Source: Dysosmobacter sp. (GTDB taxonomy: Bacteria > Bacillota > Clostridia > Oscillospirales > Oscillospiraceae). From it: DNA of 56,961 nt. The stretch is from NCBI GenBank assembly GCA_022778785.1, contig JALFSO010000010.1, forward strand, positions 1-56,961. Direction: 5' to 3'. The first letter of the stretch is position 1. Each line of letters starts with the position of its first letter. The notes under the pieces were generated by a model. That model was not told where the DNA came from. It did no database searches and saw nothing but the letters and a program-made list of their open reading frames with translations. Positions 17,131 to 40,395 of the stretch are shown here, piece by piece. A program made the translations under genes and the position numbers.

Positions 17131-17568
17131 ATGCTGACTGCGGCGCTGCTGCTGTTTGCCAACAATCTGCTGCTGTCCCTGCGGCTGTCGGGCAGCGGCT
17201 CGTTCCCGAAGCCGCTGACGGCGGCGGAGGAACGGGAATATCTGAACCGGTATGCCCAGGGGGACCAGGAGGCCCGGAACGCACTGATCGAGCATAATCT
17301 GCGGCTGGTGGCCCACGTGGCGAAGAAGTACTACATCCAGAGCGGGGAGCAGGACGATCTGATCTCCATCGGTACCATCGGACTCATCAAGGCCATCACC
17401 AGCTTCGATGGCTCCAAGGGCGCCCGTCTGGCCACTTACGCTGCCAGATGTATTGAAAATGCAATACAATCACAACGGAACAAACCGGAGCTGAGGTGGA
17501 AAATCGCACGCCCTCGGGCGAAAAATGGCGCGTGTTTTGCCGCTTATGCGGACATCGGTTTGTCATGA
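17131..17568 (+). CDS. sigK: sigK 5' part (pro-sigma-K, interrupted by skin-like element)
   Basis: Sigma-K-coding sequence runs from 17131 to the AATG core at 17458-17461 (109 codons plus Asn). Beyond it the frame continues into unrelated element sequence and stops at 17568. The N-terminus (MLTAALLLFANNLLLSL) is a hydrophobic pro-sequence like the one removed by SpoIVFB. FPKPLTAAEEREYL, LIEHNLRLVAHVAKKYY and DLISIGTIGLIKAI are sigma-70 region 2 motifs, ending at LATYAARCIEN. Bacillus sigma-K continues ENEILM at this point; the missing part is at 40039-40395. The truncated product lacks most of region 2.4 through region 4 and should be inactive until the 22.6-kb element is excised. Confidence 0.95.
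   Translation: MLTAALLLFANNLLLSLRLSGSGSFPKPLTAAEEREYLNRYAQGDQEARNALIEHNLRLVAHVAKKYYIQSGEQDDLISIGTIGLIKAITSFDGSKGARLATYAARCIENAIQSQRNKPELRWKIARPRAKNGACFAAYADIGLS
17458..17461. mobile_element. Left attachment core of the sigK intervening element
   Basis: AATG is shared with 40039-40042 and sits at the same codon of sigma-K on both sides (...RCIEN / NEILMY...). Recombination between the two restores RCIENEILMY. The B. subtilis skin element uses a similar short core, AATGA. Confidence 0.85.
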
Positions 17569-17690
17569 TACGAAACATATCAGACGCAATAGAAATATCC
17601 CCGCTGATCATCCTACGCTTCCCGCTGCTGGCGCCGAGGAAATTCTGCGATGCCCAGACATTCAATCTGCGGTTCTCCGATCCCTCGGAA

Positions 17691-18110
17691 ATGACGCAGA
17701 TCGCGGACAAGCTCCGATGGTACAGATATCAACACGCCATGCTTCAGAGCGAGGTGGCAGACCGGATCGGCATCGATCGGAGCACCTACACGCATTATGA
17801 AGAATACGGACGGGACTACTATCCAATCGGGCACATGCAGAAGCTGGCGGAGATGTATGGCATTCCCATTGAAAGCCTGCTGGATGACTACAACCTGTTT
17901 CTATACCACGATCAGGGGCGGCAGATTCAAGAAAAGCGTTTGTCACAGAACATGACCCAGAAAGCCTATGCCGCAAAGTTGGGTATCTCTATTGGAAATC
18001 TGAAAAGATGGGAGCAGAACCGTCTTGCGGATGTTCAAATCCACATGGGAGAAATACTTCCGGCAAGCGTAAAACGCATAAAACCGAAAGAGGAGTTTTC
18101 TGCACCGTAA
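17691..18110 (+). CDS. XRE family helix-turn-helix protein of the skin-like element
   Basis: From ATG 17691 the product is 139 residues. A clear XRE HTH (IADKLRWYRYQHAMLQSEVA, DRIGIDRSTYTHYEEYG) is followed by LAEMYGIPIESLLDDYN and a second, weaker HTH-like segment (RLSQNMTQKAYAAKLGISIG). No good ribosome site precedes this ATG. The frame is open upstream without a stop to the AATG core at 17458 and includes RVFCRLCGHRF, half of a zinc ribbon. In the excised circle this frame is continuous with the recombinase. It could be an element repressor or a directionality factor; both are inference. Confidence 0.75.
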   Translation: MTQIADKLRWYRYQHAMLQSEVADRIGIDRSTYTHYEEYGRDYYPIGHMQKLAEMYGIPIESLLDDYNLFLYHDQGRQIQEKRLSQNMTQKAYAAKLGISIGNLKRWEQNRLADVQIHMGEILPASVKRIKPKEEFSAP

Positions 18111-18475
18111 AATAAATGTGATCTCGCCGCCCGGTATCTGTTCAAAGGAATTCCTTTGTGCTAGAATAAATCAATCAACAAACAGTTCCGCATCGTTGAA
18201 TGTATTTCAAAAGAGATCGCTTCGTGAAAAATGGGTCGATCCTATTCACCAGTCTCAGTGGGAAACAACGGTGCTGTTTTTTTCGTGCCGGTTTATTGCT
18301 GCGGGATGAGCGGACGGATGAGGACCTCGCTGGACCGGGACGTAAAGATCGTGAAGCGCCTGTGTGTGACGGATCATCAGAACAAGGAGTTGCCGCGAAA
18401 GACCCGGGCGGACGCCGGATCGCCTTCGGCCTAAAACAAAAGGATGAGAGAAAAAACGGTTTTATGGGGTGAATC
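18111..18475. other. Unassigned interval inside the element
   Basis: About 365 bases without a recognised gene. Short frames exist (for example 18307-18434, 42 codons beginning MSGRMRTSLDRDVK) but none has convincing motifs or a clear ribosome site. It may hold the YitT gene promoter or be debris. Confidence 0.5.
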
Positions 18476-19138
18476 ATGAAAAAGAAGACCATCCAGATGC
18501 TCTGCTTCGACTGCGCAGGCTCCCTGTTTCTGGGGAGCAGTATCGTCTGCTTTGCGGTAGCGGCAAATTTTGCGCCCGGGGGCGTAAACGGGCTGGCTGT
18601 TATGGCAAATTACTTATTTCATATTCCCATCGGCTGGGCAACCATTCTGATCAACATTCCCATCATCCTGCTGACCTTCCGAAAACTGGGCAGAGACTTT
18701 TTCCTGATATCCGTCAAATCAATGCTGATCAGCTCGCTCTTCATTGATTACGTTCTGTGCTACCTGCCGGTATATACCGGCAGCCGGCTGCTCGCTTCTG
18801 TTTTTGCGGGGATCATGGCCGGGATCGGATACTCGCTGTTTTTTAACGAGGGCTCATCTACCGGCGGGACGGATTTCATCATCGTTGCCATGAAACAGCG
18901 CAATCCGGGACTGTCCTTCGGCGCCCTGGCCTTTGCAATCGACGGAGTCGTGATCATTCTGTCCGTTTTTGTGTTCCGTGAGATATGGGCGTTTATTTAC
19001 GGAATGGTTTACACCGTGATCACCAGCATCGCGCTGGATGGGACCACCCTGTTCCTGAAAAAGGCAAACCTCAGTATCTACCGGGATGAAAGCGAGCAGA
19101 AAACAGAGGCAGATACGGCCGGGGATCCGCAGAGCTGA
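18476..19138 (+). CDS. YitT family membrane protein, lacking the DUF2179 tail
   Basis: A 220-residue protein with five to six hydrophobic segments. Typical YitT motifs are NFAPGGVNGLAVMANYL, GWATILINIPIILL, GIGYSLFFNEGSSTGGTDFI and DGVVIILS. Standard YitT proteins are about 280 residues with a cytoplasmic DUF2179 domain; here the chain ends soon after the last helix with a charged tail (RDESEQKTEADTAG), so it is a short version. Function of the family is uncertain (possible transporter). ATG 18476 follows GGGGTGAATC. A strong terminator follows. Confidence 0.87.
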   Translation: MKKKTIQMLCFDCAGSLFLGSSIVCFAVAANFAPGGVNGLAVMANYLFHIPIGWATILINIPIILLTFRKLGRDFFLISVKSMLISSLFIDYVLCYLPVYTGSRLLASVFAGIMAGIGYSLFFNEGSSTGGTDFIIVAMKQRNPGLSFGALAFAIDGVVIILSVFVFREIWAFIYGMVYTVITSIALDGTTLFLKKANLSIYRDESEQKTEADTAGDPQS

Positions 19139-19221: not shown

Positions 19222-19232
19222 CATCTATGTAT

Positions 19233-19442
19233 TCATGGTTTCGCGGCCTTCTTCTCCGCTTTGATGCCATTCACCACCGCATCCACCAGCTCCAGCTTCT
19301 GTTCGGTGGGACAGGGCATCTTTTCAATCATCTTCTGGGCGTGCTCTGCATGAAACAGGGCTAGCGTTTTTTGCAGCTCTGCTTTGCCCTGCTGTGTTCT
19401 GGGCAGGATCATGAAAACTTCTATGTCTATCCCTCCTTCCAT
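19233..19442 (-). CDS. Small conserved-looking protein, mobile-element type
   Basis: Up to 69 residues. The best ribosome site, GGAGGG, lies just inside the frame, so translation from ATG 19442 (MEGGIDIEVF) is doubtful. It would better serve an ATA codon at EVFMILP or the later ATG at 19412 (MILPRTQQGKAELQ). The core (HAEHAQKMIEKMPCPTEQKL) resembles small proteins of clostridial integrative elements from memory; I cannot name a family. It may be a relic with a damaged start. Confidence 0.5.
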   Translation of the reverse strand: MEGGIDIEVFMILPRTQQGKAELQKTLALFHAEHAQKMIEKMPCPTEQKLELVDAVVNGIKAEKKAAKP

Positions 19443-19999: not shown

Positions 20000-21664
20000 G
20001 TGGAATGCACCATGGAAATGCCTGATCTGAAAAACCGGAAAGCCCTCCTCTATGCCGTCCTCGCCGTCATTGCGGCGGCTGTGCTGCGGCAGATCGGCTT
20101 TCAGGCAGATGACCCCCTGGACTTGTTCTGCTGCATTCTCCGCCCCTCCATCTACATCGGCCTGTTCTGCGTATGGGGCGTCTCCATCCGCAAGCGGATC
20201 ATCCAGCCCCAGGTGCGCCGCTATCTCTTCGCCATCTCCGCGCTGATGGTGTTCTGGGTGACGGTCAGGACCATACGGTTCCTGTTTGCGTTGGACCCGT
20301 GGGCGCTGCGGAAGCTCTGATACCTGTACTATCTGCCCATGCTGTTCATCCCGCTTCTGACGGTGTTCGTCGCCCTGTCCCTGGGTAAGCCGGAGCGCTT
20401 CCGCCTGCCCAGCCGGACGGCCCTGCTGTACATCCCCACCGCCGCCCTCCTGCTGCTGGTGCTGACCAACGACCTCCACCAGCTGGTGTTCGTCTTCCCG
20501 CCGGACGCCGCCGTGTGGGGGAACGACTACCACTACGCCGTCGGCTATTTCCTGGCCGTGGGCTGGCTGTCCCTCTGTGCGCTGACCGCCCTGGCCGCCA
20601 TGCTGGCCAAGTGCCGCATCCCCAACAGCCGTCAGGTGATCCTGCTGCCCTTCGTCCCCGTCGCAATGGCCCTGGTCTACGGCGTGCTGTATTGTTTCCG
20701 GCTGCCGTGGCTGAGGTTCCTCGCCGGAGATGTGACCGCCGTGTTCTGCCTGCTGTTCGCCGCCGTGCTGGAGAGCTGCATCCAGTGCGGACTGATCCAG
20801 ACCAATACGGGATACGGCGCCCTCTTTGAGACCGGGACCATCGGGGCCCGGATCACCGACGCGGACTATCACACCTGGTACGCCTCCTCCAACGCCGTGC
20901 CCCTCTCTCCGGAGGTGATGCGCTCGGCGGAACAGGGCAGCGTCCTCATCGATCCGGACACCCTGCTGAGAAGCAGCCCCATCACCGGCGGCCACGTCCT
21001 CTGGCAGGAGGACGTGGCGGACATGAACGCCCTTCTGGAGCGGCTGGAGGAGAACCAGAAGACCATCGAGGCCGGCAACTGCATCGAGGAGGAGAACTAC
21101 AAAACCAAGGTGAAGATCAATACCCTGCGGGAGAAGAACCGCCTGTACGACCAGCTCCGGAGACGGACGGCCCATCAGGTGGACCTGCTGGACGGCCTGC
21201 TGCGCCGGTACGGGACGGCGGACCCGGAGACCGCCCGCAGCCTGCTGGCCAAGATCGGCGTCATCGGCGCATACATCAAACGGCGGGGCAATCTGCTCTT
21301 TGTGGAGGAGAAGGCGAAGACCACGGACACGGCGGAGCTGTCGGCCTGTCTGGAGGAGTCCTTCACCAGCCTGGAGCTCATGGGCGTGGAGTGCGCCATG
21401 GACATCCCGCCGGGGCAGACAGTGCCGGTGCGGGACGCCGCCCGGTTCTACGACTTTTTCGAGGCCGTCATGGAGGCCGCGCTGGGCGATCTTCACTCCG
21501 TGTGGCTGAAGGGCCGCGCCCTGGAGCGAACCGTCATCTTCCACATGGAGGTGGAGAGCGGGGCGGATCTGTCGCCGCTGGCGGCCCGGGCCGACGCCTG
21601 CGGCTGGGAGGACGGCGTCTGGCGCTTCACCATCCGGGTGGGAAAGGCAGGTGGACCGGCATGA
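20000..21664 (+). pseudogene. Sensor kinase-like membrane protein, in-frame stop
   Basis: GTG 20000 follows AGGAGAGG. The frame encodes about 555 codons of a 7TM-type sensor: membrane helices (LLYAVLAVIAAAVL, PSIYIGLFCVWGV), then YLYYLPMLFIPLL and LTNDLHQLVFVFPP, then a cytoplasmic part with coiled coil (LEENQKTIEAGNCIEEENYK) and HQVDLLDGLLRRY. A TGA at 20318-20320 interrupts it in frame where Trp (TGG) would fit (RKL-stop-YLYYLP). The C-terminus lacks clear ATPase N and G boxes. It overlaps the second kinase by four bases (ATGA). With the stop it would yield two fragments. Confidence 0.75.
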
Positions 21665-22950
21665 ACACAGTCCTCTTTTCCCCGCCAGCCCGGTGGTCGC
21701 TACTGCTGACGGCCCTGTTCCTGACGCTGATCTTCTCCCTGTGCCTGTTGGTCACCGTGTTCGGCGACCGCTTCCGCTGGAGGACCCGGTGGCTGAACGT
21801 GTCCGCGTTCCTGGCCCTGATCCTGCTGCTGACCTTCCTGACGGACGCCTTCGAGCGGATCAATCTGGGCCTTTCCCCCACGGGATGGCTTCCCCCCCAT
21901 GGGGCTGCTGTGGTGTGTGGCAATCGGGATGGACCTGCTGTTCCTGTGGGAGCTGCGGGAGATCCGGCGGATCAGGAGCCGGACCCTGAGCCGCGATTCC
22001 GTCAAGGAGGCCATGGACCGGCTGCCCAGCGGCATCTGCTACTTCACCATGCGGGGCGCCGTGAAGCTGTGCAATCTCCAGATGGACCGCCTGTTCCGGG
22101 TGATGGCCCAGAAGGACCTGCAAAACATCACCGAATTCCGGGAGGCGCTGGACGGCTGCGGCCCGGATACCGGCGTCATCTGCCTGTCCCGGGAACTGCA
22201 GAACTACCTGTTCCCCGACGGACGGGTCTGGCACTGCCGCCAGTCCCTGGTCCGGGACCGGGAGGGGACCCCCTACACAGAGGTGGTCTTCTCCGACTTC
22301 ACCGAGCTGTACCACCGGGAGCTGGAGCTGAAGCGCCAGACGAGAAAATTGCAGGCCATCCGTCATCACCGTGGAGAGCGCCGGGAACGGCACCGTGACC
22401 GCTGACCCGGGAGAAGGAGGTGCTGTCCGCCAAGACGAAGCTCCACGACCAGATGGGCACCGGTCTGGCGGCGGTGCGCCAGCAGCTGCTGGGGCAGGGC
22501 GCGGCGGACGGCGAGAGCGCCGTCCGGCTGCTGCGGCAGGCGGTCAGCGCCCTGCGGGACCGCAGCGAATACCCGCCGGAGGAGGATGTGCTGGCCGGGT
22601 TCATTCAGGACGCCGGGGCCCTGGGCGTGCGGGTCCATCTCACCGGCGAGCTGCCGGAGAACGGGGAACACGCCTTCGTCTTCCTGCTGGCCATGCGGGA
22701 GTGCCTGTCCAACGGCGTGCGCCACGCCGGGGCCACGGAGCTGTGGGTCCAACTGCGGCGGGAGGACGGCGCTGCCTCCGTCCACATCACCAACAACGGC
22801 GCGCCCCCGGCGGCGGAGGTGGTGCCCAAGGGCGGGCTCCACAACCTGTACCGCTGCACCCTGGACTGCGGCGGGACCATGGAGCTTCAGTCGAAGCCCG
22901 CCTTCGCCCTGACCATCACATTTCCGAGAGAAACGGAGGGAACGCCATGA
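21661..22950 (+). pseudogene. Sensor histidine kinase, two frameshifts
   Basis: The gene begins at ATG 21661 with membrane helices (SLLLTALFLTLIFSLCLLV). Reading shifts at a run of seven C (21892-21898), where six would keep MGLLWCVAIGMDLLFLWELR in frame. It shifts again at 22355-22402, where an odd stretch replaces the helix before LTREKEVLSAKTKLHDQMG. The C-terminal part has a kinase N-box (MRECLSNGVRHAGATELWV) and G-box-like region (NNGAPPAAEVV), so this was the catalytic partner of the response regulator that overlaps its end by four bases. As read it cannot make an intact kinase. Confidence 0.78.
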
Positions 22951-23600
22951 AGCGGGTACTGATCGTGGAGGACCAGCGGATGCCCCGGGAACACATGGAG
23001 CGGATGCTCTCCGACAGCGGGAAATACATTCTGGCCGCCAGCGTCGGCGGCGCGGACGTGGCCGTCCTCATCTGCCAGCGGCAGGAAATCGACCTGATTT
23101 TGATGGACGTCTGCACCACCGGCGCCAAGGACGGCATCCAGGCCGCCGCCGAGATCAAGGCGGCGTTCCCCCACATCAAAATCATCATCGTCACCTCTAT
23201 GGTGGAGGTGAGCTATCTGGACCGGGCCAGAGCCGCCCACGTGGACAGCTTCTGGTACAAGGACATCAGCCCCGAGACCCTCATCGACGTCATCGACCGC
23301 ACCATGGCGGGGGAGCATCTGTTCCCCGGCCAGACCCCGAAAGTGAAGCGGGGCCTGGCCGACAGCACCGACCTCACCGCCAAGGAGATCCAGGTGCTGC
23401 GGCTGGTCTGCGAGGGACTGGAGTACAGCGAGATCGCCCAGGCCCTGGACGTGGCGGAGAGCACCGTCAAATACCACGTGTCCAACATCCTGTCCAAAAC
23501 CGACTACTCCAACAAGACCCGGCTGGCCATCGCCGTCACGGGCAAGAAGTTCATCATCCCCAACCTCACGGAGGACCATGATCCCGGCACCACCGGATAG
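22947..23600 (+). CDS. NarL/FixJ-type response regulator
   Basis: A 217-residue protein: receiver domain (MKRVLIVEDQRMPREH; phosphoacceptor Asp in LILMDVCTTGAKDG; IIIVTSMV; FWYKDIS with the conserved Lys) and LuxR-type HTH (LTAKEIQVLRLVCEGLEYSE, IAQALDVAESTVKYHVSNIL). ATG 22947 overlaps the kinase stop and has GGAGGG upstream. The reading frame is intact although both upstream sensor genes are broken, so it may be orphaned or answer another kinase. Confidence 0.92.
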   Translation: MKRVLIVEDQRMPREHMERMLSDSGKYILAASVGGADVAVLICQRQEIDLILMDVCTTGAKDGIQAAAEIKAAFPHIKIIIVTSMVEVSYLDRARAAHVDSFWYKDISPETLIDVIDRTMAGEHLFPGQTPKVKRGLADSTDLTAKEIQVLRLVCEGLEYSEIAQALDVAESTVKYHVSNILSKTDYSNKTRLAIAVTGKKFIIPNLTEDHDPGTTG

Positions 23601-25210: not shown

Positions 25211-25765
25211 GTGATCTCAGACGAAGCCGCATACCGGCGGTATCTCGACGGAGAGGAAAAAGCCGCCGATCTGCTGGTTGAAAAATACGGCGACCCATTG
25301 ACGCTTTACATAAATGGCTATCTCAAAGATATGCACGAAGCCGAGGACTTGATGATCGAAGCATTTTCACAGATTTTTGCAAAAGAGCGTCCGATCACAG
25401 GTGCGGGAGCGTTTAAGGCGTATCTGTATAAAACGGCGCGAAATCTCGCCCTGCGCCACAGGAAAAAGCACAGGCTCAGCTTTCTGCGTTTTGACGAATT
25501 GGACTTTGAGCCGCAGAGCGGCGTGCCGGCTGACATGGAGCTTTCTCGCAGAGAGCGCAGCCGCCAGCTCTATGACGCCCTTGAAAAATTGAAGGCGGAA
25601 TACCGGGAAGCCCTTTATCTGGTCTACTTTGATGGTATGAGCTACCGCAGTGCGGCAACGGTTATGAATCAAAGCGAGGGGCAGATCACAAAGCTGGTCT
25701 ACCGTGGGAAGCAAAACCTGAAAGCGATCCTGGAACAGGAGGGATTTACCTATGCGGACGAATGA
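25211..25765 (+). CDS. ECF-type RNA polymerase sigma factor
   Basis: A 184-residue two-domain sigma factor. Region 2: DPLTLYINGYLKDMHEAEDL, then MIEAFSQIF and KAYLYKTARNLALRHRKKH. Region 4: LEKLKAEYREALYLVYFDGM, then SYRSAATVMNQSEGQITKLV. GTG 25211 follows GGGAGG. The next gene starts inside its end, so a small membrane protein is co-translated with it, the usual arrangement of a sigma factor and its anti-sigma factor. It lies within the skin-like element. Confidence 0.92.
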   Translation: MISDEAAYRRYLDGEEKAADLLVEKYGDPLTLYINGYLKDMHEAEDLMIEAFSQIFAKERPITGAGAFKAYLYKTARNLALRHRKKHRLSFLRFDELDFEPQSGVPADMELSRRERSRQLYDALEKLKAEYREALYLVYFDGMSYRSAATVMNQSEGQITKLVYRGKQNLKAILEQEGFTYADE

Positions 25766-26102: not shown

Positions 26103-26706
26103 ACTGATCGACAACTGTTTTCAAATTGCCGTGCTGTTGTGTGCGGCGCTGGCGGCGATCGCGGCGGAGATCCGGCACAAAGACCGCCGTTTCCTGATCC
26201 TGGCCCTGTTTTATATCTGTGTTTCCATGGGAACGCTCTATTGGGTGCTGCACATTTTCATTTTCGGCGACGTACCGCAGGTTTTCTATGTTGCGGAGTT
26301 TTCATGGCTGGCGGCGTATCTGTTCCTGCTGTCCTTCCAGATGGTGCGGACAGACCGGGCGGGGCCGCTGTTTTCCCTGCCGGCCCTGGCCTGCGCCCTG
26401 CTGGCGGCGGCGGTGGTTCTGGCGTTCCGGATTTTCGGCCCGTCCTATGTGGTTTCCGCGGCATTTGCCGGGGTTGTGTTTGCCATCGTATATCTCGCGG
26501 TCTGGCGTCTCCGGCGCAGAGGCGGCGGAGGACTGATCGACTGCTGGCTGCTGCTCTGCGTGGGATTGCAGCTGCTCCTGTATGTGGTGTCCGTCTTTAT
26601 GCAGGACTTTACCCGCTTTAATCTCTACTTTGCCGTGGATATTGCGCTGACGTTCTCATTTGCGGCGCTGCTGCCGCTGGCGCTTCGGGAGGTGGCGGGG
26701 AAATGA
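26092..26706 (+). CDS. Multi-pass membrane protein of the ECF module
   Basis: A 204-residue protein with six to seven hydrophobic helices (for example IAVLLCAALAAIAAEI, LLSFQMVRTDRAGPLF at a loop, LALREVAGK at the end). It overlaps the preceding gene by 11 bases and the PrsW-like gene by four, so all four genes are translationally coupled. No catalytic motif seen. It may be a sensor or partner of the protease. Confidence 0.7.
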   Translation: MNFELIDNCFQIAVLLCAALAAIAAEIRHKDRRFLILALFYICVSMGTLYWVLHIFIFGDVPQVFYVAEFSWLAAYLFLLSFQMVRTDRAGPLFSLPALACALLAAAVVLAFRIFGPSYVVSAAFAGVVFAIVYLAVWRLRRRGGGGLIDCWLLLCVGLQLLLYVVSVFMQDFTRFNLYFAVDIALTFSFAALLPLALREVAGK

Positions 26707-30900: not shown

Positions 30901-33900
30901 GCTTGACACCAGCGACACTCAATACGTGCTGGTGGGCGCGGTGCAGGGCGATCAGACCACCTGCACCCTCACCGGCCTCGAGCCCGGCGAGACCTACACC
31001 TATGTGGTACGCGGCGTGGGCTATGTGGGCGGGGAGGCCCTGGAGTCCGTGGACAGCGCACCCATCACCGTGCGCACCCAGTCGGAGGGCAGCAAGGTCC
31101 GGCTGAATCTGGTGGGAGAGTCTCTGACCAGCGACAATATCCTGCAAAGCACCGGCGCGCAGGCAAAGGTCTCCATGCAGGTGTCCGGCACAGACGGCGG
31201 CAGCATCTCCTATCAGTGGCAGGTTCTGGAATCCACCGCGGAGGGCCGCAGGAAAGGCTGGTACAACGCGGACAAGCTGGACGATACCGCTTCCGCAGGC
31301 GAGACGAAGCTGGTGGGAACGGTCACCGGCGCGAAAAGCGGCACCCTGACCCTCAATACCATTGACAAGAGCCTCAACGGCAGCAGCCTTCGCTGCGTGG
31401 TCACCATCACCACCAGGGCCGGCAATGTGGCGATCTATTATTCGCCCAGCGTCACCCTGGACCTCAACGGCCTGGACACCGCCACGACGATCACCGTCGC
31501 GGGTGCGGCAGGCAATGGAGACGGAAATATTACCGACCCGTATACGGGCACGGCGAATTACACGCAGGTCACGAAGAACGTCACCACAACCTACGTGCCC
31601 GTCCCGGTGACCGTTGAAGCGGACGGAAAAACCTACACGATCTATCAGGACGAAACGGATCCCGAGAACCCCGTATATGTGGGCGTGTATGACACTGTTA
31701 ACACGGTGGCCGGCACCACCAGCCGTACATATCACGCCGTTACAAAGAACGGCGAAACCTTCACGGTGGGCGCTGAGCTGACGCTGAGCGGCGACCGGTA
31801 TGTGGTTGACAGCGAAGGCGAGTATACCATCCCGGCGGACTTCACCGGCAGCAGCATTTATGAGGATGCGACGACTTCCTATTACGAAAAGCAGTACGTC
31901 GTGACCCCCGGCGAAAGCGTTACCACTCTCACGGAGTACTGGTACAATACCGGCGACGGCAAGTACTACACCAAAAACGCATCCGGCGGATTTGTGCTGG
32001 CCGCTCCTCAGCCTGACAAATATACGGATAATGATGGCGAGGTCTACGAAACCGGCGCCGACCTGCGCATGGCGTATTACGATGCCAACGGCACCGTGAT
32101 CCTGGGCGCGGACGGAACGGACGGCTACGACCATTACGCGGCCTATACCTATGACGCAGCGAACACCGGGTATACGCTGAGCGCTTCCTTCCACTGTGTC
32201 CCCGGCACCATGCTCAAAAACGGCACGGCTGACTACGCCGACAGCACGAAGCTGGTGACCGTCACCAGGGATAACGAGGTGGAGAATATCACCTACACCT
32301 CCTCCCCGGTGACCGGCACCCAGCTCGCCCTGAGCGCAGGCGTGAAGGACAGCAGAGGCGACACGGTCAGCACGAAGGTGATCTTCACCATCACCAACAC
32401 GGACACCGGCGCCGCGACGCAGTTCACGGCATACGACGGCACCTCCACCTGGACGGCTCCTCAATACGGACTGTACCGCATTGAGGCCGCGGCTGCCGCC
32501 ACCGCCACCACCAAAGCCAGCTCGGCCGTGTGCTACTACCTGGCTGATGACCCCAACAATGACTATCGCCTCTCTCTGTGGCAGGGCGGTAAGCAGGTCA
32601 CCAACATCACCTACAACGGGGATGATGTCACGCTGAAGCTGGAAAAGCGCGTCTATAACGGCGAAACCCCCACCTCCTCCTGGGAGGAACTGGACAGCGG
32701 CTTCAGCTATCAGGTGAACGATGCTGATTTCAGCGGCAGCAGCTACAAACCCACCGCGGCGGGCAGCTACCTCTTCTCCGCTCTGGTGGACGGCAAAACC
32801 GCTGCTTCCGCCTTCCTGGCGGTGAGCAAGATCCCCATCACCGTCAGGCCCACATGGGATCGCGAGGAAGGCAACATCAACACAGTCCCGAACTTCGGCG
32901 ACATCACGCTGGAAGCCAAAGACGCCCAGGGCAACGACGTCGATGTCGATGACGTGATGACCGTCTCCTGCGACCTGTATGACGGAACCGGCATCAAGCA
33001 GGGCGCCGCCTCCGGCGTGTACACCGTCACCCCGGCTTATCAAAATGACACTGTAAAGGCAGACTTCCTCTCCTGCTACAGCGTCACAATCAGCACAGAC
33101 AACATCTACTATATCAGAGACGCGATCACGGTGCATTTCAACGCCGGTGAAAACGGCGAGGTCTACGCCCGCTACATTGATCCCAGCGGCACCGAGTTTG
33201 CCTTTGACAACGGCAGCCAGATCAGCATGGACAACCGCCTCAAATTCGTGGCTGAGCCGGCCGACGGCTGGTTTGTGGGAGGCTGGACAGTCCTGCTTGA
33301 TGGGGAGCCTGTGGATTCGAGCTGGTACGGCTCCAACACCAGCAGATACAGTAACACACTGGAAATCACTTCCAACGGCATGGAGGCGCTGGATGACTCC
33401 GGCAAGAAGGAGATCACCGTTTCCGTCGCCTTCACCGACCAGACCCACCAGATCACCTACAGCGCCGGCGACAACGAGGGCAGTCTGCGGGCGGTGACGG
33501 GAACTTCGCAGCTCACCAGCGGCGGCTTCGTGGCCCACAACGCCGCCGTCGACTTTACCGCCGAGCCCAGCACGGGCAAGATGGTGGAAAAGTGGATCGT
33601 GGACGGAACGGAGTACAAGTGGGACGGCACGGATGCGCTCTACCGTGAGAACACCCTCGCCCTGGAGAACATCTCCGCTGCCCATGATGTTCAGGTCTTC
33701 TTCACCGACGCGGCTGTCACCAATGTGACTGTCTCCGCAGAGGATAAGGGCGGCGGTCTCTATACCGGCGCCACGGTCACCGTAACCGACGCCCAAGGGA
33801 ACACGATCACGGGCGATGCGCTCAGGAGTGTCCCCCAGTCCAATGCCCTGACCTTCACGGTGGGGATCGACAACATCGCCTCCGGCGTTGTCAAGGAGTG

Positions 33901-36900
33901 GCAGACCAGCACCAACGGCACGGATTGGACCACCGTGACCGGCTCCGGCGGACAGAATTCCATCACGGTCTATGAGCACGGCGAGACGCTCCATGTCCGT
34001 GTTGTGATCGCCGTGGCCCAGCTCTATCGGCTGAGCTGGAAGGTCATGGAAGGCGATACGGAGATCACAGACACCGGCATCGCCAATCTGGTCGTCAAGA
34101 GCGGCGATGTATTCCTCGGCGGCAACGGCAGCCTCTATGCGGTCAACACGCCTGTGGAATTCACCCTGCGGCTGGACAGCAGCTGCTATGTGGTGGGCTG
34201 GAGCAGCAATGTCACGCCCGCCGCAGACGGAAGGTCCGCGGCCATGACCCTGACCGATGACACTGTCGTCACCGTCAACGTGGCCAAAAAGCCCGTTGTG
34301 AGCATCCAGACCATCCCCGCGAATGACCACGGCACTGTCGGGATGGAGGGCACGAAGGACGGCGAGTCCTTCTTCATCCGGGATGACAGCAGCTATGTGG
34401 ACCTGGGGAGCGATCTCACCGTCACCCTCAGCCCCGACACGGGCTATGAGGTGGGCGGCAGCATCGATGCCGTCTACACCGACGGCACCGGCAGCACCAC
34501 CGACGACAAGACCTTCGCCATTTCCAACATCCAGACGAACCAGACCATCGAACCCGTCTGGACGGAGATCCCCACCGCGGCGGTCAGCCACTCTGTGGTG
34601 GACAAGAACGGTGACAGCACCGGCCTGGACGGCACCCTGACCATGTCCGTGACCCGCAAGGGCATGAGCGATTATGCCTTCACCGCCGGTGAGGACGGGA
34701 CCGACGCGGTCTATCGCGACTCTGTCGTCACCTTCACCGCCACGCCGGCTGCCGGCTACAAGACCGGCAAGTGGATCGTGAACGGCGTGGAGCAGAGCAC
34801 CGCTCCCACGCTGACCATCACCGGCAATACCCCGGCCAACCAGACCGTTCAGGTCCAGTTCGACCCCGTGGGCGAGGCGGTGACCTTCGGCTTTGACGAG
34901 AGTGGCTTTACCAACAAAGCGACACTCAGCGCCGTGTATCTGCCCAACGGCAGCAATACGGAGAGCGACTTCACCAGCGGCAACAAGCCCACGGCCAACG
35001 GCGTCATCACCTTCACGGTGGATGATCTGGCCGACGGCTATGAGGTGGAGGGCTGGTATGTCAACAGCGTCAGACAGGACGGCGAGACCGGAGAGACCTT
35101 CGACTACGACGTGACCGCCAATGTGGGCGCCAACGTGCAGGTCAAGATCATCCGCAGCTCCTACACCGTTACCTTCTCCGGCGCAAATGGTTCCGTCTCC
35201 GCCGCTGTGGGCGGGAACCCCATCAGCAGCGGCGACAGCGTTGTGGGCGACACCTCTGTTACCTTCACCGCCGCCCCCGCCGGTGCCACCGGCTACACCT
35301 TCGACGGCTGGACCGTGGACGGTGAGGCTTCGGAGAATACGGCAGAGTCCCTGACCCTGACCATCACCAAAGATACTGTGGTCAAAGCCAGCTACACCCT
35401 GGACGAGGTGCGCTACACCGTGACGTATGGCGTCATCGGTGAAAACGGCACCCTGTCCGTCCGGAAGTTGGACGCTGGAAACACCGCCGCCGCCGGCAGC
35501 GACGTGGTCTTTACCGCCACCCCCGCCGACGGCTACCGGGTCAAGGGCTGGTACAGTCATGCGGATGGTACGGCGGCGATCCCCGGCACCACCTTTGAGC
35601 AGAACAGCTACACCCTGGAAAACCTGCTTGCCAACACCAGTGTGTATGTGGCATTTGAACCCATCCCCACCTACGACATCACCGTGACCGTGACCGGACT
35701 GGGCGCCGTGACGGCCACCGTCAATGGTGAAACCGCAGAGATCACAAACAACAGGCTGACCGTCAGCCGCCATGACAATGTGGTGCTGACTGCTGCGCCC
35801 GATGCCCACCAGTACCTGACCGGCTGGACGCTGGACGGCGCAGATCAGGGCAACGGCAGCATGACCCTGACCCTCACCGATGTGACCGAGGCCCACACCG
35901 TGACTGCCGGCTTCGCGGCCAGCCAGCTGGTGAACTTCCAGACCAAGGTCGTGAACGCCGTGGGCGGCTCCCTGACTGCCAAGGCCGGTTACGGCGAGAC
36001 CCTGAGCACCATTGACGCCTCCACCGGCATCAGCATCGAGAAGGGTAAGAAGGTGGTGCTGACCGTGGTTCCCGCCGGGAACTATATGGTCAAGGCGTGG
36101 ACGGTCAACGGCGTGGTGCAGGAGAACCTGTCCAACACCCTGACCATTGAGAACCTGAGCGAGTCCACCGTGGTCACCGTGGAGTTTGAGACCCCCGTGG
36201 TCATGCGCACCATCCCGGGCGACGGCACGGACTACACCATCAGCAGCATCGTCAAGACGCCCTCGGACTACGGCGAGGCAAATCAGATCCGTGACCGCGG
36301 CACGGTGACCTTCACCGTCACCCCCGAAGCCGGCAGGTATCTGACGGAACTGACTGTCAACGGCACCGACTGCCTGACTTCCACCGGCACCAGCGGCTCC
36401 GAAAACCAGCTGACCATCCGGAGCAACGGCGACGGCAGCTTCACCATCACCGTGGCCAATGTGACGAAGGACATTGAACTGACTGCCGGATCTCTGGAAT
36501 TCCAGACGGTCCAGGAGAAGCTGACGGAAGTTCCGGCGGAGCTGGCTGACCAGTTCCAGACTGTGGACGCGCTGAAAACCGCCCTGCGCACGCAGGTGCT
36601 GAAGACCGACAGCAATGTTTCTGCCAGCCAGATCGCCCTGTTCGATATTGTGCTGAAGTATACCACGGACGGCATCACATGGGTCGAGGCTGATAAAGCA
36701 CACTTCCCGGCAGGCGGTATCACCGTGTCCATCCCGTACTCTGATCTGGGCAACACGGACAGCAGCTATACCTTCACCGTCATCCACATGTTCACCACGG
36801 ACATGGACGGCCATGGGATCGGCGACACCGAGCGCATTACCCCCACGAAGACCGCGACCGGCATCCGCTTTACTGTCACCAGCCTGTCTCCCTTCGCCAT

Positions 36901-37768
36901 CGGCTGGAGCAAGTACACCGCGCCCTCCGGCGGCGGTGGCGGCGGTGTCGGCGGTGGCGGCGGCGGTGGCGGCGGCGGTGGAGCCGCACCGGCCGTGACC
37001 GTCACCATCCCGGACAGCGTCAACGGCAAAGTCACCGCTGACAACACCGGCGCGGAGGAAGGCGATACGGTTACCCTGACGGTTGAGCCCGACAAGGGGT
37101 ACACGCTGGAGACCCTGACCGTCACCGATAAGAACGGCGAGAAGCTGGAGCTCAAGGACAAGGGCGATGGCAAGTACACCTTCACCATGCCCGCTTCCAA
37201 GGTGACCGTTGAGGCCACCTTCATGGAGGACAACTCCATGCTGAACTTCTTCGTGGATGTCCCCGCCGGCGCTTACTGCTACGACGCGGTCCTGTGGGCT
37301 GCCAAGGAGGGCATCACCGCCGGCACTACCGCCACCACCTTTTCTCCCAATGCCACCTGCACCCGCGCCCAGGCCGTCACCTTCCTGTGGCGTACTGCCG
37401 GCAGCCCCGCCCCGCAGAGCCACGTGATGCCCTTCACCGACGTGGCCGAGGGCAGCTACTATCACGACGCGGTGCTGTGGGCCGTGGAGAACGGCATCAC
37501 CAAGGGCACTACTGACACCACGTTCAGCCCCAACGCGAAATGCACCCGCGCGCAGATCGTCACCTTCCTGTGGCGCAGCCAGAAGTCTCCCGCCTCCGGC
37601 AGCGTGAATCCCTTCACCGATGTGGCGGCTGACGCTTACTACGTTGATGCAGTCCTGTGGGCCGCTGAGAACGGTATTACCGCCGGTACTACCGCCACCA
37701 CCTTCAGCCCCAACAACGACTGCACCCGCGCCCAGATCGTGACCTTCCTGTATCGCTACAAGAAGTAA
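27995..37768 (+). CDS. Giant SLH-anchored surface protein (3,257 residues)
   Basis: The start follows AAAGGAG. In order: signal peptide (LLSMALAFVMVLSLLPAM ending ALA); FG-GAP/VCBS-like calcium motifs (DFDGDGRDTVVVY about 210, DVDKDGFDEL about 296); a Gly/Ser/Thr-rich strand region (about 680-920); a fibronectin type III domain (about 931-1028); many InlB-B/Flg_new-type beta repeats (pattern VTFTAtPa.GY..gWtVnG, about 1700-3080); a poly-Gly linker (about 2979-2998) within the last part; and three C-terminal SLH domains (about 3084, 3146 and 3205, each with FxDV...YYhDAVLWA...GITxGT...FSP) that bind cell-wall polymer. It is probably an adhesin or surface scaffold. It is the largest cargo of the skin-like element and lies downstream of the ECF/PrsW module, which may control it. 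Confidence 0.9.
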   Translation: MKKTAKKLLSMALAFVMVLSLLPAMSVTALAEDEDDSGTKDAFGISMTEWTQAEKQQAESELPFGTGYGTWTTLLEKNELYFTMGYDGVSTLTGTFDWNEKTTETGTPDDIPDSAIGGHVINLSQDDLTGYMTGYKAATSAPVDIYGTGKKEYVAHLVLTHDASKMYLFMTDSNYKPVLGNNLGVEFTNIAQLGEMKVHQINGAFSIAAGDFDGDGRDTVVVYIPRTGSNKETKNGTAPFIAEYTFGTDANGLWGFSKTPTSTVCSNVLQLLGNNEINKIDTMKNQPMVDLVAEDVDKDGFDELIVTAGMNDVTNSDNQLQSQVFIYDRLSSKTTPVNATEDGNWHLSYHSQDECNSNGQHAPGLYIREDNYRRVVWASSTVGNIEVSTGLGSVDYPEIITAGFIDGEQSKTQHINVDGSDNIGVTAVRVDPTEEIDQSNRFTITSGGKSMTAINVICQYEEILNQKLSPNNWTKGGFYEDEDVNGLLQVQAYADRGLEYAEAVFISGTVYHLSANLRLEEAYRHTDFGNKDCGAGSNTLTNTTVATVTAGNFNGNDDGREQLIFVTSLKQSGKNNAYSRVYCYYYDTTLETKDGKQQEHGYEGKRSSYLTEHKGSFYVSLNALDTDNDSVIAKLDSITREYAMPDVLAILESTPYFTEIGDGPDGVGNSETVYGKSIIQGDTKSASFGFTVGLVTGFDIDIGKTSGVSLEVHLDHSFNWTTTKSKEVEWGVEFKNDTGENLVVVYRCPVIVYHYVDLNGNELVVGKSGQPAYSMVTVDEYNEAAEQFGLEEITDENAKLATPGEPSTYRSTDLGLSDANVHKEWVEYPNQGTTSQYLTYTTTTEKAFEYEFNLASTFIGKIHGFLLGFDLEFTTAHSKASLNGKSVTKSGSVNSTNAVDGYSFQWKFATWDCQLNGSTVPVIGYLVKDVSSPPSPAMGLTAETTSTDSVTLRWAQGTRLARQYRIYRVLDTSDTQYVLVGAVQGDQTTCTLTGLEPGETYTYVVRGVGYVGGEALESVDSAPITVRTQSEGSKVRLNLVGESLTSDNILQSTGAQAKVSMQVSGTDGGSISYQWQVLESTAEGRRKGWYNADKLDDTASAGETKLVGTVTGAKSGTLTLNTIDKSLNGSSLRCVVTITTRAGNVAIYYSPSVTLDLNGLDTATTITVAGAAGNGDGNITDPYTGTANYTQVTKNVTTTYVPVPVTVEADGKTYTIYQDETDPENPVYVGVYDTVNTVAGTTSRTYHAVTKNGETFTVGAELTLSGDRYVVDSEGEYTIPADFTGSSIYEDATTSYYEKQYVVTPGESVTTLTEYWYNTGDGKYYTKNASGGFVLAAPQPDKYTDNDGEVYETGADLRMAYYDANGTVILGADGTDGYDHYAAYTYDAANTGYTLSASFHCVPGTMLKNGTADYADSTKLVTVTRDNEVENITYTSSPVTGTQLALSAGVKDSRGDTVSTKVIFTITNTDTGAATQFTAYDGTSTWTAPQYGLYRIEAAAAATATTKASSAVCYYLADDPNNDYRLSLWQGGKQVTNITYNGDDVTLKLEKRVYNGETPTSSWEELDSGFSYQVNDADFSGSSYKPTAAGSYLFSALVDGKTAASAFLAVSKIPITVRPTWDREEGNINTVPNFGDITLEAKDAQGNDVDVDDVMTVSCDLYDGTGIKQGAASGVYTVTPAYQNDTVKADFLSCYSVTISTDNIYYIRDAITVHFNAGENGEVYARYIDPSGTEFAFDNGSQISMDNRLKFVAEPADGWFVGGWTVLLDGEPVDSSWYGSNTSRYSNTLEITSNGMEALDDSGKKEITVSVAFTDQTHQITYSAGDNEGSLRAVTGTSQLTSGGFVAHNAAVDFTAEPSTGKMVEKWIVDGTEYKWDGTDALYRENTLALENISAAHDVQVFFTDAAVTNVTVSAEDKGGGLYTGATVTVTDAQGNTITGDALRSVPQSNALTFTVGIDNIASGVVKEWQTSTNGTDWTTVTGSGGQNSITVYEHGETLHVRVVIAVAQLYRLSWKVMEGDTEITDTGIANLVVKSGDVFLGGNGSLYAVNTPVEFTLRLDSSCYVVGWSSNVTPAADGRSAAMTLTDDTVVTVNVAKKPVVSIQTIPANDHGTVGMEGTKDGESFFIRDDSSYVDLGSDLTVTLSPDTGYEVGGSIDAVYTDGTGSTTDDKTFAISNIQTNQTIEPVWTEIPTAAVSHSVVDKNGDSTGLDGTLTMSVTRKGMSDYAFTAGEDGTDAVYRDSVVTFTATPAAGYKTGKWIVNGVEQSTAPTLTITGNTPANQTVQVQFDPVGEAVTFGFDESGFTNKATLSAVYLPNGSNTESDFTSGNKPTANGVITFTVDDLADGYEVEGWYVNSVRQDGETGETFDYDVTANVGANVQVKIIRSSYTVTFSGANGSVSAAVGGNPISSGDSVVGDTSVTFTAAPAGATGYTFDGWTVDGEASENTAESLTLTITKDTVVKASYTLDEVRYTVTYGVIGENGTLSVRKLDAGNTAAAGSDVVFTATPADGYRVKGWYSHADGTAAIPGTTFEQNSYTLENLLANTSVYVAFEPIPTYDITVTVTGLGAVTATVNGETAEITNNRLTVSRHDNVVLTAAPDAHQYLTGWTLDGADQGNGSMTLTLTDVTEAHTVTAGFAASQLVNFQTKVVNAVGGSLTAKAGYGETLSTIDASTGISIEKGKKVVLTVVPAGNYMVKAWTVNGVVQENLSNTLTIENLSESTVVTVEFETPVVMRTIPGDGTDYTISSIVKTPSDYGEANQIRDRGTVTFTVTPEAGRYLTELTVNGTDCLTSTGTSGSENQLTIRSNGDGSFTITVANVTKDIELTAGSLEFQTVQEKLTEVPAELADQFQTVDALKTALRTQVLKTDSNVSASQIALFDIVLKYTTDGITWVEADKAHFPAGGITVSIPYSDLGNTDSSYTFTVIHMFTTDMDGHGIGDTERITPTKTATGIRFTVTSLSPFAIGWSKYTAPSGGGGGGVGGGGGGGGGGGAAPAVTVTIPDSVNGKVTADNTGAEEGDTVTLTVEPDKGYTLETLTVTDKNGEKLELKDKGDGKYTFTMPASKVTVEATFMEDNSMLNFFVDVPAGAYCYDAVLWAAKEGITAGTTATTFSPNATCTRAQAVTFLWRTAGSPAPQSHVMPFTDVAEGSYYHDAVLWAVENGITKGTTDTTFSPNAKCTRAQIVTFLWRSQKSPASGSVNPFTDVAADAYYVDAVLWAAENGITAGTTATTFSPNNDCTRAQIVTFLYRYKK

Positions 37769-37862: not shown

Positions 37863-37919
37863 GTCATGTTGATGAACGATTCCATTTGATTTCCTTTGGC
37901 GGCGAACCATAAGCGGCAT

Positions 37920-38158
37920 GCCGCTTCAGCATATCGAAAAACTCTGCCTGAAGGACAAGCGTTCTTTTTTGCAGGGGGAGTACGAGGGGGAAACCGGCGC
38001 GATTGGCGGCCCAGAAGGGGCCGGGAATCGCAAAGCCGCAACGGTGCCCGGGAGCCCCTTCGTGTTAAATCGAATGCCTGCAAAAAGCCTGTGTCAGCAG
38101 GTGTTTGCGCCGCGCAGCGGCAGCTTTTCGTCCCGCTGCGCGGGCAGATAAGCGGCAT
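37920..38158 (+). repeat. Dispersed structured repeat, family 1, copy C
   Basis: A near full-length copy with left end CATATCGAAAAACTC, the GCAGGGGGAGTACGAGGGGG segment, a shorter variable arm than copy B, and the core (GAATGCC at 38072 pairing with GGCAT near 38153). The closing right hairpin is missing and a family 2 repeat begins at once. It lies inside the skin-like element. Confidence 0.8.
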
Positions 38159-38275: not shown

Positions 38276-38336
38276 AACGGATCCCTTGGCGATATGATAG
38301 ATGGACCAACCTGCCATATCTCCGTGAGGTGCGCCT

Positions 38337-40043
38337 ATGAAAAAGGAATGCAGACAGTTTGTCATCTACTCCCGCAAATCCAAGTTCACCGGCAAGGGCG
38401 AGAGCATCGAAAATCAGATCGAGCTGTGCCGCCAGTACATTGCCGTCCACTTCAGTCAAGAGGAGGCGGACACGGCGCTGGTCTATGAAGACGAGGGCTT
38501 TTCCGGCGGAAATCTGGAGCGGCCTCAGTTCAAGAAGATGATGAAGGACTCCCGGAAAACGAAGTTTGCCGCCATTGTGGTGTACCGGCTGGACCGGATC
38601 AGCCGCAACATCGGCGACTTTGCCAAGCTCATCGAAGATCTGGGCGACCGGCACATCGACTTCATCTCCATCCGGGAGCAGTTCGACACCTCATCCCCCA
38701 TGGGGCGGGCCATGATGTACATCGCCTCCGTGTTCTCTCAGCTTGAAAGAGAGACCATCGCCGAGCGCATCCGGGACAACATGCACGAGCTGTCCAAGAC
38801 CGGGCGCTGGCTGGGCGGCACCACGCCCACCGGCTACGAATCCGAGAGCATATCCGACGTGACCGTGGACGGCAAGGTGCGCAAAGCCTGCAAGCTGAAG
38901 ATCATCCCGGAGGAGATCAGCCTTGTGCAGCTGATTTTTGAAAAGTTTCTGGAAACCGGATCGCTTACGAAAGTGGACGCCTTCCTTCTGGAAAAGCGGT
39001 ACACCACCAAGCGGGGCAAAAATTTCACCCGCTTTGCCATCAAGGGCATTTTGACCAACCCGGTCTATATGATCGCCGACGAAGCGGCCTACGACTATCT
39101 GACGGAAAACCACGTGGACCTGTTCGCGGAAAAATCCAATTTTGACGGCAAGCACGGCATCATGGCCTACAACCGCACCTTGCAGCGGCCCGGCAAGGCA
39201 CACCAGATCCGGCCTATGGAGGAGTGGATCGTATCCGTAGGCAAGCACCCCGGCGTGATCCCCGGCCGGCAGTGGATTCAGGCGCAGTCCATGCTGGCGG
39301 TCAACAAGTCCAAGAGCTACCGCAGGCCCCGCAGCAACGTGGCGCTGCTGTCCGGGCTTCTAGTCTGCGGCAGCTGCGGCGACTATATGCGCCCCAAGCT
39401 GATCAACCGCCGCGCGGGGGACGGCGAGCTGATCTACACCTATATGTGCTCTACCAAGGAGCGGAGCCAGAGCTCCCGTTGCCGGATGAAAAACGCCAAC
39501 GGCAATACGCTGGATGCAAAGGTGATCTCCGAAATCAAAAAGCTGGCTGAGGACCGGGACGTCTTTGCCGGCTTCCTGGCCCAGACGAAGAAAGCCATCA
39601 GCGGCAATCGGGACGGCTACGACGCGGAACTGCTGACCCTGAAAGAAAGGCTGGCTGAGAACGAGAGCAGCATCAAGGCGCTGGTCAGCTCCCTGACCAA
39701 GAGCGCCGGAACCTCCGCCGAGCCGTATATCATGGAGCAGATCGAAGAGCTGCACCGGACCGGCGAGGACATGAAAAAGCGCCTTGCGGAGCTGGAAGCC
39801 CTGACGGAACACCAGCGGTTTGCGGATCAGGAGTTTGCGTTCAGCCGCCAGATGATCGAATCCTTTGCCACGAACGTGGAGGACTGCACGGTGGAGGAAA
39901 AGCGGCGTCTGCTGCGGGCCATCGTGAAAAAAGTGGTCTGGGACGGCGAAAATGCCTGGGTCTACCTCTTTGCAGGCGACGGAGAGGCCGATCTGCCCCC
40001 GTTTGACGCGCCGGAAGTTCCGCTGGGTAAGGATAGCGAATGA
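38337..40043 (+). CDS. Large serine recombinase (skin excisionase, SpoIVCA-like)
   Basis: A 568-residue recombinase. N-terminal resolvase domain with FVIYSRKSKF (likely nucleophile S15), VVYRLDRISRN and SPMGRAMMYIASVFSQLERE; recombinase domain (GGTTPTGYES, then FTRFAIKGILTNPVYM); zinc ribbon (LLVCGSCGDYMRPK, CSTKERSQSSRC); and a coiled coil (about 440-500). It should catalyse recombination between the AATG-centred sites that split sigK. Its stop codon (TGA 40041-40043) overlaps the right AATG core, so excision replaces its terminus and the frame continues into the XRE frame of the left end. ATG 38337 follows GTGAGGTG. Confidence 0.95.
   Translation: MKKECRQFVIYSRKSKFTGKGESIENQIELCRQYIAVHFSQEEADTALVYEDEGFSGGNLERPQFKKMMKDSRKTKFAAIVVYRLDRISRNIGDFAKLIEDLGDRHIDFISIREQFDTSSPMGRAMMYIASVFSQLERETIAERIRDNMHELSKTGRWLGGTTPTGYESESISDVTVDGKVRKACKLKIIPEEISLVQLIFEKFLETGSLTKVDAFLLEKRYTTKRGKNFTRFAIKGILTNPVYMIADEAAYDYLTENHVDLFAEKSNFDGKHGIMAYNRTLQRPGKAHQIRPMEEWIVSVGKHPGVIPGRQWIQAQSMLAVNKSKSYRRPRSNVALLSGLLVCGSCGDYMRPKLINRRAGDGELIYTYMCSTKERSQSSRCRMKNANGNTLDAKVISEIKKLAEDRDVFAGFLAQTKKAISGNRDGYDAELLTLKERLAENESSIKALVSSLTKSAGTSAEPYIMEQIEELHRTGEDMKKRLAELEALTEHQRFADQEFAFSRQMIESFATNVEDCTVEEKRRLLRAIVKKVVWDGENAWVYLFAGDGEADLPPFDAPEVPLGKDSE
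40039..40042. mobile_element. Right attachment core of the sigK intervening element
   Basis: AATG matches 17458-17461. To its right lies GAGATCCTGATG, coding EILM of sigma-K; to its left is the end of the recombinase gene. Confidence 0.85.
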
Positions 40044-40395
40044 GATCCTGATGTACTTTCGGGCCCAGAAGAAGCTGCAGGGGGAGGTGTCTCTGTCGGA
40101 CTCCATCGACACGGACAAGGAAGGCAACGCCCTGGAGCTGATGGACGTGGTGGGGGTGGACGACACCATGCTGGAGGACCTCCACGACCGGGAGAGCGCG
40201 CTGAAGGTGCGGCGGCTGGTGAAGGAGTGCCTGACGGAGCGGGAGGCGGAGATCATCCGCCTGCGCTACGGCCTGGGCGGCACGGTGCCTCTGACCCAGC
40301 GGGAGATCGCCGCCTCCTTCGGCATCTCCCGGAGCTATGTATCCCGCATCGAAAAGCGGGCGTTGGGGAAGCTGCAGGAGGCTATGGAAAAATGA
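40039..40395 (+). CDS. sigK: sigK 3' part (sigma-K regions 2.4 to 4)
   Basis: It encodes the rest of sigma-K from NEILMYFRAQKK to the stop: VSLSDSIDTDKEGNALELMD (region 3 side), LTEREAEIIRLRYGLGG, TQREIAASFGISRSYVSRIE and KRALGKLQEAMEK (region 4). In Bacillus the matching run is ENEILMHLRALKK and SRSYVSRIEKRAL. It has no ribosome site of its own and is silent until joined to 17131-17457. The join gives 327 + 357 nt, 227 residues, in frame. Confidence 0.95.
   Translation, partial: NEILMYFRAQKKLQGEVSLSDSIDTDKEGNALELMDVVGVDDTMLEDLHDRESALKVRRLVKECLTEREAEIIRLRYGLGGTVPLTQREIAASFGISRSYVSRIEKRALGKLQEAMEK

Follow-up and report, generated by a model that had tools for sequence, protein, structure and literature searches.

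The DNA analysed here (the window) comprises 56,961 nucleotides of a Dysosmobacter sp. draft genome (GenBank assembly GCA_022778785.1, contig JALFSO010000010.1) and contains sigK, the gene for sigma-K, as two halves separated by an element of 22.6 kb (Table 1). The element is housed within the sigK coding sequence, and neither half is complete. The tetranucleotide AATG is common to both junctions, the two copies are spaced 22,581 bp apart, and joining the flanks at AATG yields an in-frame sigma-K of 227 residues, split after codon 110. Judged by eye, the 5' part carries an N-terminal stretch that resembles a pro-sequence. A large serine recombinase is encoded at the right end of the element. 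Its gene ends GAT AGC GAA TGA, with the stop codon (40041-40043) straddling the right core and being completed by host sigK. An earlier note on this DNA had described the split gene, the shared AATG with its in-frame join and a recombinase ending on the right core, and all of this holds on the sequence. A second intact sigK, which that note had named as a reason to regard this copy as irrelevant, is lacking from the window assembly (121 contigs, 95% complete), where the next-best match, 42% identical over 105 residues, is another sigma factor.

Distribution, attachment sites and small protein of the codon-110 element

Relatives of the element were sought in 61 genomes of the genus (recombinase at E 1e-60, sigK at E 1e-30), in 300 genomes of the family (recombinase at E 1e-100, related genomes being counted apart) and in a named collection, for which all counts refer to the best 80 of 529 confirmed recombinase relatives. 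The recombinase was found in 6 of the 61 genus genomes, including that of the window, and the right-hand sigK half adjoins it in all six, so the pairing is not due to chance. It was found in 29 family genomes, 24 of which have a sigK half inside the fetched flank. At 76 of the 80 named loci a sigK half lies within 300 bp of the recombinase and ends at the codon-110 site; the half is farther away at two (L219, 1.4 kb; L192, 6 kb) and does not occur on the available stretch at two others (L168, L205). The right half is present at 54 loci, the left at 3 and both at 21, L143 probably being miscounted among the last. Hosts, by record title, include Oscillibacter, Flavonifractor, Pseudoflavonifractor, Intestinimonas, [Clostridium] viride, Lacrimispora, Mediterraneibacter, Hungatella and Holdemania, and records titled Oscillospiraceae, Lachnospiraceae and others retain the same sigK site. 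The element measures 10.7 kb in [Clostridium] viride DSM 6836, 7.8 kb in Lacrimispora xylanisolvens DSM 3808 and 4.9 kb in Mediterraneibacter agrestimuris DSM 111629. To judge from these sequences, the recombinase is a member of a family of sigK-intervening elements.

The sigK status of the genus genomes was tallied by hand. The earlier note had proposed a search for intact sigK in related genomes, and in 28 of the 61 the gene indeed runs without a break through residues 1-212 at least; it is interrupted in 15 (in G043 solely on the strength of a contig ending at the junction), partial at contig ends in two and, other sigma factors aside, without a match in 16. The left sigK part was not found in three of the interrupted genomes (G026, G029 and G043). 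The G043 contig (L059, 3205-3208) stops at the sigK attachment core, a break that a mixture of excised and integrated copies could cause during assembly. Four of the 16 genomes without sigK at E 1e-30 are at least 90% complete, and loss, splitting or gaps could each be responsible. In G003 (L061) the left sigK part occurs twice, at 405-740 and 3087-3380, about 2.3 kb apart, with an arm like that of a left attachment site (attL) after each; one copy is 11 codons short.

At the DNA level the window recombinase, together with its flank, shows 90% identity to a record titled Candidatus Fournierella pullistercoris, against 46% protein identity for the right sigK part. The window cargo searched for, a set without the response regulator, was not found in the nearest recombinase relatives over up to about 10 kb before the recombinase. 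This points to a recent transfer of the recombinase module, probably with a changed load. For recombinase relatives without an adjoining sigK (the genomes of L088, L094, L096, L097 and L099), the gene listing gave no clear target. At L224 in G092 (recombinase at G092:C9:583606-585252) a divergent small gene lies close to the recombinase, with no sigK part on the stretch. A recombinase with a sigK-like right half (43%) occurs at L149, a record titled Faecalibacterium prausnitzii APC923/61-1 (a genus not known to sporulate), and three IMG/VR viral contigs (L100, L101 and L103) carry one beside a sigK-like right half (44-50%).

The arm of the attachment site on the recombinase side is near GAGGATAGC-RAAT in many loci, and the opposite arm is near GCTATCCTATCATAGCGG. 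A set of 22 complete elements of 2.66 to 35.5 kb was assembled from the window, G017 and 20 named loci; L143 was excluded because its extra sigK-half matches resemble another sigma gene. When the arms are joined, the resulting attP is an imperfect inverted repeat in 21 of 21 scored elements, with 10 to 18 of 21 positions symmetric (p 0.0005-0.02); L220, in which the left end has no AAT, fell outside the score. One arm was shuffled 2000 times, which sets a floor of p 0.0005, and the window (14 of 21 positions) reaches this value. The core sequence of the Bacillus subtilis skin element is AATGA. In the window the AA of AATG (17458-17459 and 40039-40040) centres the attP repeat and for this reason is taken as the crossover dinucleotide; symmetry thus suggests where the crossover would occur. 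A nearly symmetric attP would also allow an inverted element order, and the recombinase indeed stands beside the left sigK half at L078, L081, L083, L170, L172 and L189, which represent at least four separate cases (L172 equals L078 and L189 equals L081).

Just two protein families are present in all 22 complete elements, namely the recombinase and a small protein of 55-122 residues as called. Two other clusters, of 21 and 13 members, were set aside, having turned out to stem from overlapping frames within the recombinase gene. The small gene and the recombinase gene lie on opposite strands in complete elements, often far apart. A profile of the small protein detects it in 28 of the 300 family genomes, 24 of which also carry the recombinase (Fisher p = 1.3e-26). 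A match to 9hnh (E 1.6e-4) was discarded, as it covered 27 residues with no stretch passing alone. From its size, its partnership with the recombinase and the precedent of CD1234 and Skr, we infer that the small protein is a candidate recombination directionality factor. A sigma-E-like promoter lies upstream of the small gene in 12 of the 22 elements at p <= ~0.05 relative to shuffles, with a combined p of 7e-11 over the 22, related elements being counted apart. Upstream of the recombinase no sigma-E-like signal was seen over the same 22 elements (combined p = 0.51), L187 alone giving p 0.01.

Cargo, predicted read-through in the circle and a second site

Table 1. Features of the interrupted sigK and its element, in window coordinates.
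Feature	Position	Strand	Remarks
sigK 5' part, residues 1-110	17131..17460	+	sigma-70 region 2 (Pfam, 57 bits)
Left attachment site	17458..17482	+	core AATG 17458-17461; element arm to about 17482
Left-end helix-turn-helix (HTH) protein	17460..18110	+	HTH_3 (Pfam); open reading frame called from GTG 17496
YitT-family membrane protein, cargo	18476..19138	+	Pfam
Candidate recombination directionality factor, 69 residues as called	19233..19442	-	start may lie further inside
7TM sensor protein, cargo	20339..21664	+	HisKA_7TM 28.7 bits, cut-off 28.6
Histidine-kinase-like ATPase domain, cargo	22420..22950	+	below Pfam cut-off
Response regulator with LuxR/GerE-type HTH, cargo	22947..23600	+	
ECF-type sigma factor, cargo	25211..25765	+	
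PrsW-family membrane protease-like protein, cargo	26703..27344	+	
3,257-residue surface protein, cargo	27995..37768	+	FG-GAP, fn3 and InlB-B repeats, three SLH stretches
Large serine recombinase, 568 residues	38337..40043	+	Resolvase, Recombinase and zinc-ribbon domains (Pfam)
Right attachment site	40016..40042	+	element arm (GGATAGCG beside core); core AATG 40039-40042
sigK 3' part, residues 111-227 and stop	40042..40395	+	sigma-70 region 4 (Pfam, 60 bits)

The Pfam scan covered 18 window proteins, of which 17 belong to the element at least in part, and small open reading frames only in part. Among these proteins no phage structural or replication gene was seen apart from a holin-like match at 25752-26102 that falls below threshold (21.8 bits, cut-off 28.4), and no relaxase or conjugation gene was seen among the scanned element proteins. 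Of the 61 genus genomes, 3 encode the PrsW-like protein, that of the window included. An open frame of 3,453 residues on the minus strand (27797-38158), opposite the SLH protein gene, was taken as a by-product of GC-rich repeats. For other elements, 30 of 68 prepared proteins were scanned, together with a further set of 10 that shares two with that list; no clear phage structural gene was found among them. A LysM protein at L182 (8304-9782) overlaps the Phage_tail_X model and was taken to carry LysM repeats rather than a phage domain. The cargo of these elements includes type IV pilus genes, an AMP-binding enzyme, a spore germination permease, an ABC transporter, a nickel-iron hydrogenase subunit, and LysM and SLH proteins. 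The sigK element of [Clostridium] viride DSM 6836 includes panB, panC and panD (L182, 4979-7266), and its panC is the sole copy in that genome (99% complete). Judged by domain content, the cargo scanned is not phage-like, as the earlier note had supposed for the window.

Computed from the window sequence, the recombinase frame in the excised circle would run on into the left-end HTH gene to give a fusion of 784 residues. Relatives of the left-end gene occur in nine elements (window, G023, G344, G340, L220, L201, L198, G138 and G003) and keep the same frame relative to the core in all nine, as determined by script for six and by eye for G344, G138 and G003. No start codon lies between the core and a conserved KWR-like motif in G023 (by script) or in G344 and G003 (by eye). 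The circle frame could be computed for 19 complete elements, L219, L220 and L189 not being usable. More than 60 codons of read-through occur in three only (window, L198 and L201), so read-through is a feature of a subset of elements; five frames end at the core and one falls short of it. In a separate computation G023 also reads on, and the L198 frame is broken further along.

In seven genus genomes sigK is split at another place, near codon 64 (site B). The four measurable site-B elements are about 5.0 and 5.1 kb (G011 and G044), 15.8 kb (G051) and 19.6 kb (G041) long. A different serine recombinase adjoins the split in six of the seven, and none was found on the fetched stretch of G053. Relatives of this recombinase occur in 49 of the 300 family genomes (E 1e-120), and sigK pieces adjoin them at 20 of 20 loci among the best 20. 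The site-B arms (GGTTGAAGC..GGAAGGAG and CTCCTTTTGCTTCA) are unlike those at codon 110. In 8 of 8 site-B elements a distinct small protein of 37-103 residues is encoded at the recombinase start, which it overlaps in seven and precedes in one, a layout that resembles B. subtilis skr-spoIVCA. Two site-B elements of about 5 kb, L066 (5604-10690, by Pfam) and L067 (4690-9710, by open reading frame likeness), carry a Crp-like regulator, a hybrid-cluster (Prismane) protein and a TspO protein.

Both elements occur in one sigK in some relatives. In G150 (L294/L295) a single contig holds an 11,217-bp element, a 46-codon middle piece of sigK and a 6,910-bp element, and joining the three pieces gives an open frame of 222 residues, counted from a script-chosen start. 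The codon-110-type recombinase of G150 is shorter (a 344-residue frame) and its small protein was not found, for which reasons this lock may be stuck. G171 (L296) likewise has both on one contig, with an 8,415-bp element, a 46-codon middle piece and a 7,740-bp element; the join spans 234 residues and the small protein is found at E 1e-7. In G344 (L234-L236) the middle piece of sigK lies between both recombinases, the first piece being absent from the contig, and in G020 and G213 both element types lie beside sigK pieces on separate contigs.

Probable mother-cell excision and the competing explanations

By its anatomy, as read from the sequence, the element falls within the sigK-intervening (skin) group and outside its prophage-derived subtype. 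It is very probably a working, non-phage skin element that is excised in the mother cell by the recombinase together with the small protein, after which sigma-K would be made while the spore keeps the element. Excision, the cell type in which it takes place, its timing and the processing of the pro-sequence are what we infer here. Growing cells and the forespore would keep the 22.6-kb element inside sigK, after codon 110, and would produce no full-length sigma-K. The recombinase by itself is expected to favour integration. The sporulating mother cell would make the small protein, which would bind the recombinase and switch it to recombination between attL and the right attachment site (attR) at the AA of AATG; this would release a circle and rejoin sigK in frame. 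Pro-sigma-K would then be processed and drive the late mother-cell genes. Because the mother cell dies, the element and its cargo would be inherited through the spore.

The skin-like reading given in the earlier note is thus strengthened by the in-frame join, the lack of another sigK, the conserved recombinase with its candidate directionality factor, the palindromic attP and the recurrence of this arrangement in dozens of relatives, as well as by selection on sigK. The ratio of nonsynonymous to synonymous substitution rates (dN/dS) is 0.09-0.24 for both sigK halves relative to six intact relatives and 0.077 for the recombinase relative to L141, and both sigK halves and the recombinase are under purifying selection. 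New relative to that note are the small gene, the other sigK site found in relatives and the predicted run-on of the recombinase frame in the circle.

Several observations weigh against mother-cell excision as set out here. The sigK selection estimate also spans the time before insertion. The left arm in the window differs from the family consensus at several positions. No significant sigma-E-like promoter precedes the small gene of the window (p = 0.55), so that sigma-E timing is unproven for this organism; 10 of the 22 elements miss p 0.05 in the scan, for which ATA, 15-18 bases, CATACANT served as the sigma-E consensus. The recombinase occurs without the small protein in 5 of 29 family genomes (G083, G146, G150, G228 and G264), and the small protein occurs without the recombinase in four family genomes that are 65-82% complete. 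The small protein has no PHROG match, and its profile matched no directionality factor in the PDB set, missing YotN (SprB). Lastly, sigE, which the model needs, was not found in the window assembly, and neither were spoIIGA and ftsZ. As ftsZ is near-universal and spoIIGA is missing as well, the absence of sigE is probably an assembly gap, this being the simplest reading, and a loss of sporulation deduced from it was rejected.

The element could instead be a mobile island that uses sigK as an integration site by chance, with excision being random or stress-driven and control of sporulation a side effect or absent. Very different cargo accompanies the recombinase, the Fournierella record suggests movement from host to host, for 5 of the 29 family recombinases the fetched stretch contains no sigK half and the window yielded no sigma-E promoter, all of which suit such an island. 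We nevertheless regard it as unlikely, since the site lies inside a late sporulation gene and is kept across Oscillospiraceae, Lachnospiraceae and other records, sigma-E-like promoters precede the small gene in over half of the complete elements and purifying selection persists on the sigK halves. It is more improbable still that sigK is dead in this lineage, with the element stuck and sporulation no longer completed: in the window the sigK halves, the recombinase and the small protein are all open and conserved, and the sigE gap looks technical given that ftsZ is missing too. The genus genomes without a sigK match, which imply that loss may occur, the lack of sigE in the window assembly and the interrupted genomes in which the left sigK part was not found would fit a dead gene. 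The window assembly is a draft in 121 contigs, and two contigs could have been wrongly joined at sigK; that the same junction recurs at 76 of 80 other loci, including L186, titled as a complete genome (Clostridiales bacterium CCNA10), makes this explanation scarcely credible.

A wider reading can be offered tentatively, as a possibility that we do not favour over its negation. Excision may mend two genes at once, two locks may act in some relatives, and the elements may be germline-only DNA that the mother cell can discard. In the integrated state the recombinase stop codon is supplied by the host gene, and its loss in the circle would create the 784-residue recombinase-HTH protein. The HTH tail could then signal the circle state to the recombinase, acting as a latch against re-integration or as a licence for it. 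In some relatives sigK would be held by independent locks with different recombinases, such that late sporulation would need two excisions.

Comparison with known intervening elements

Splitting of sigK of a kind that excision would reverse looks common in gut commensal Clostridia, with 15 of 43 classable genus genomes interrupted, and a split sigK may be scored as absent in surveys of gene presence. Minimal elements of about 2.7 kb would represent a compact set of recombinase, directionality-factor candidate and attachment sites. The elements differ in cargo, and one recombinase module appears to have moved recently between distant hosts. That two different systems each split sigK, at separate sites, raises the questions of why it is targeted repeatedly and what role in timing a two-step lock might have.

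Sporulation DNA excision, in the open-licence literature as far as its excerpts extend, is described for Bacillus and relatives and a few clostridia, mostly with prophage-like elements, and in the same excerpts no sigK with two interruptions is reported. In B. subtilis, according to excerpts of PMC6957869 and PMC4191935, skin interrupts sigK and is excised in the mother cell by the SpoIVCA recombinase with the 64-residue directionality factor Skr; an excerpt of PMC13141910 gives a core of five nucleotides. The window element shares with it an interrupted sigK, a large serine recombinase, a small directionality factor (a candidate here) and a very short core, the likeness to SpoIVCA being one of description only. 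Skin is 48 kb and prophage-like, whereas the window element is 22,581 bp with cargo that does not appear phage-like. The two also differ in that skr overlaps spoIVCA at its 5' end, small genes of the window type lying on the opposite strand and often at a distance. For Clostridioides difficile, an excerpt of PMC5025042 identifies the 72-residue CD1234, under sigma-E and SpoIIID, as the directionality factor. Here too sigK is interrupted by an element with a recombinase (CD1231) and a small factor, CD1234 being likened by the description of its size and role, and sigma-E control of the small gene matches the family promoter pattern, in which the small gene has the signal and the recombinase does not. 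The C. difficile skin differs in being prophage-like, and its sigma-K is without the pro-sequence that seems present in the window.

The gin element of B. cereus gerE (GirC, GirX), a sporulation-gene intervening element without phage genes according to an excerpt of PMC5595907, is similar to the window element in having no phage genes (in the window, among the proteins scanned) and in pairing recombinase with a small directionality factor (a candidate in the window). It differs in its target, gerE in place of sigK, in having three recombinase genes as opposed to one among the scanned window proteins, and in the 42 residues of GirX. The phages phiS63 (C. perfringens) and MMB025 (Alicyclobacillus) are integrated in sigK (excerpts of PMC13141910; phiS63 as cited there and in PMC5595907) and thus share the integration site, but they are phages, and the MMB025 core, TCTC (PMC13141910), is unlike AATG. 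The large serine integrases of TP901-1 and SPbeta (SprA/YokA) are of the same class as the recombinase and are the best PDB matches to its profile; for YokA the best-matching stretch is the N-terminal region, at profile positions 61-250. The top-ranked phage record is the integrase of Terrisporobacter phage TPELB_ph1, with 38% identity over 94%. Skin elements that interrupt sigK are therefore already known from B. subtilis and C. difficile, and what is new here is their scale, the non-phage cargo, a defined pair of recombinase and small protein, the second site and the double locks.

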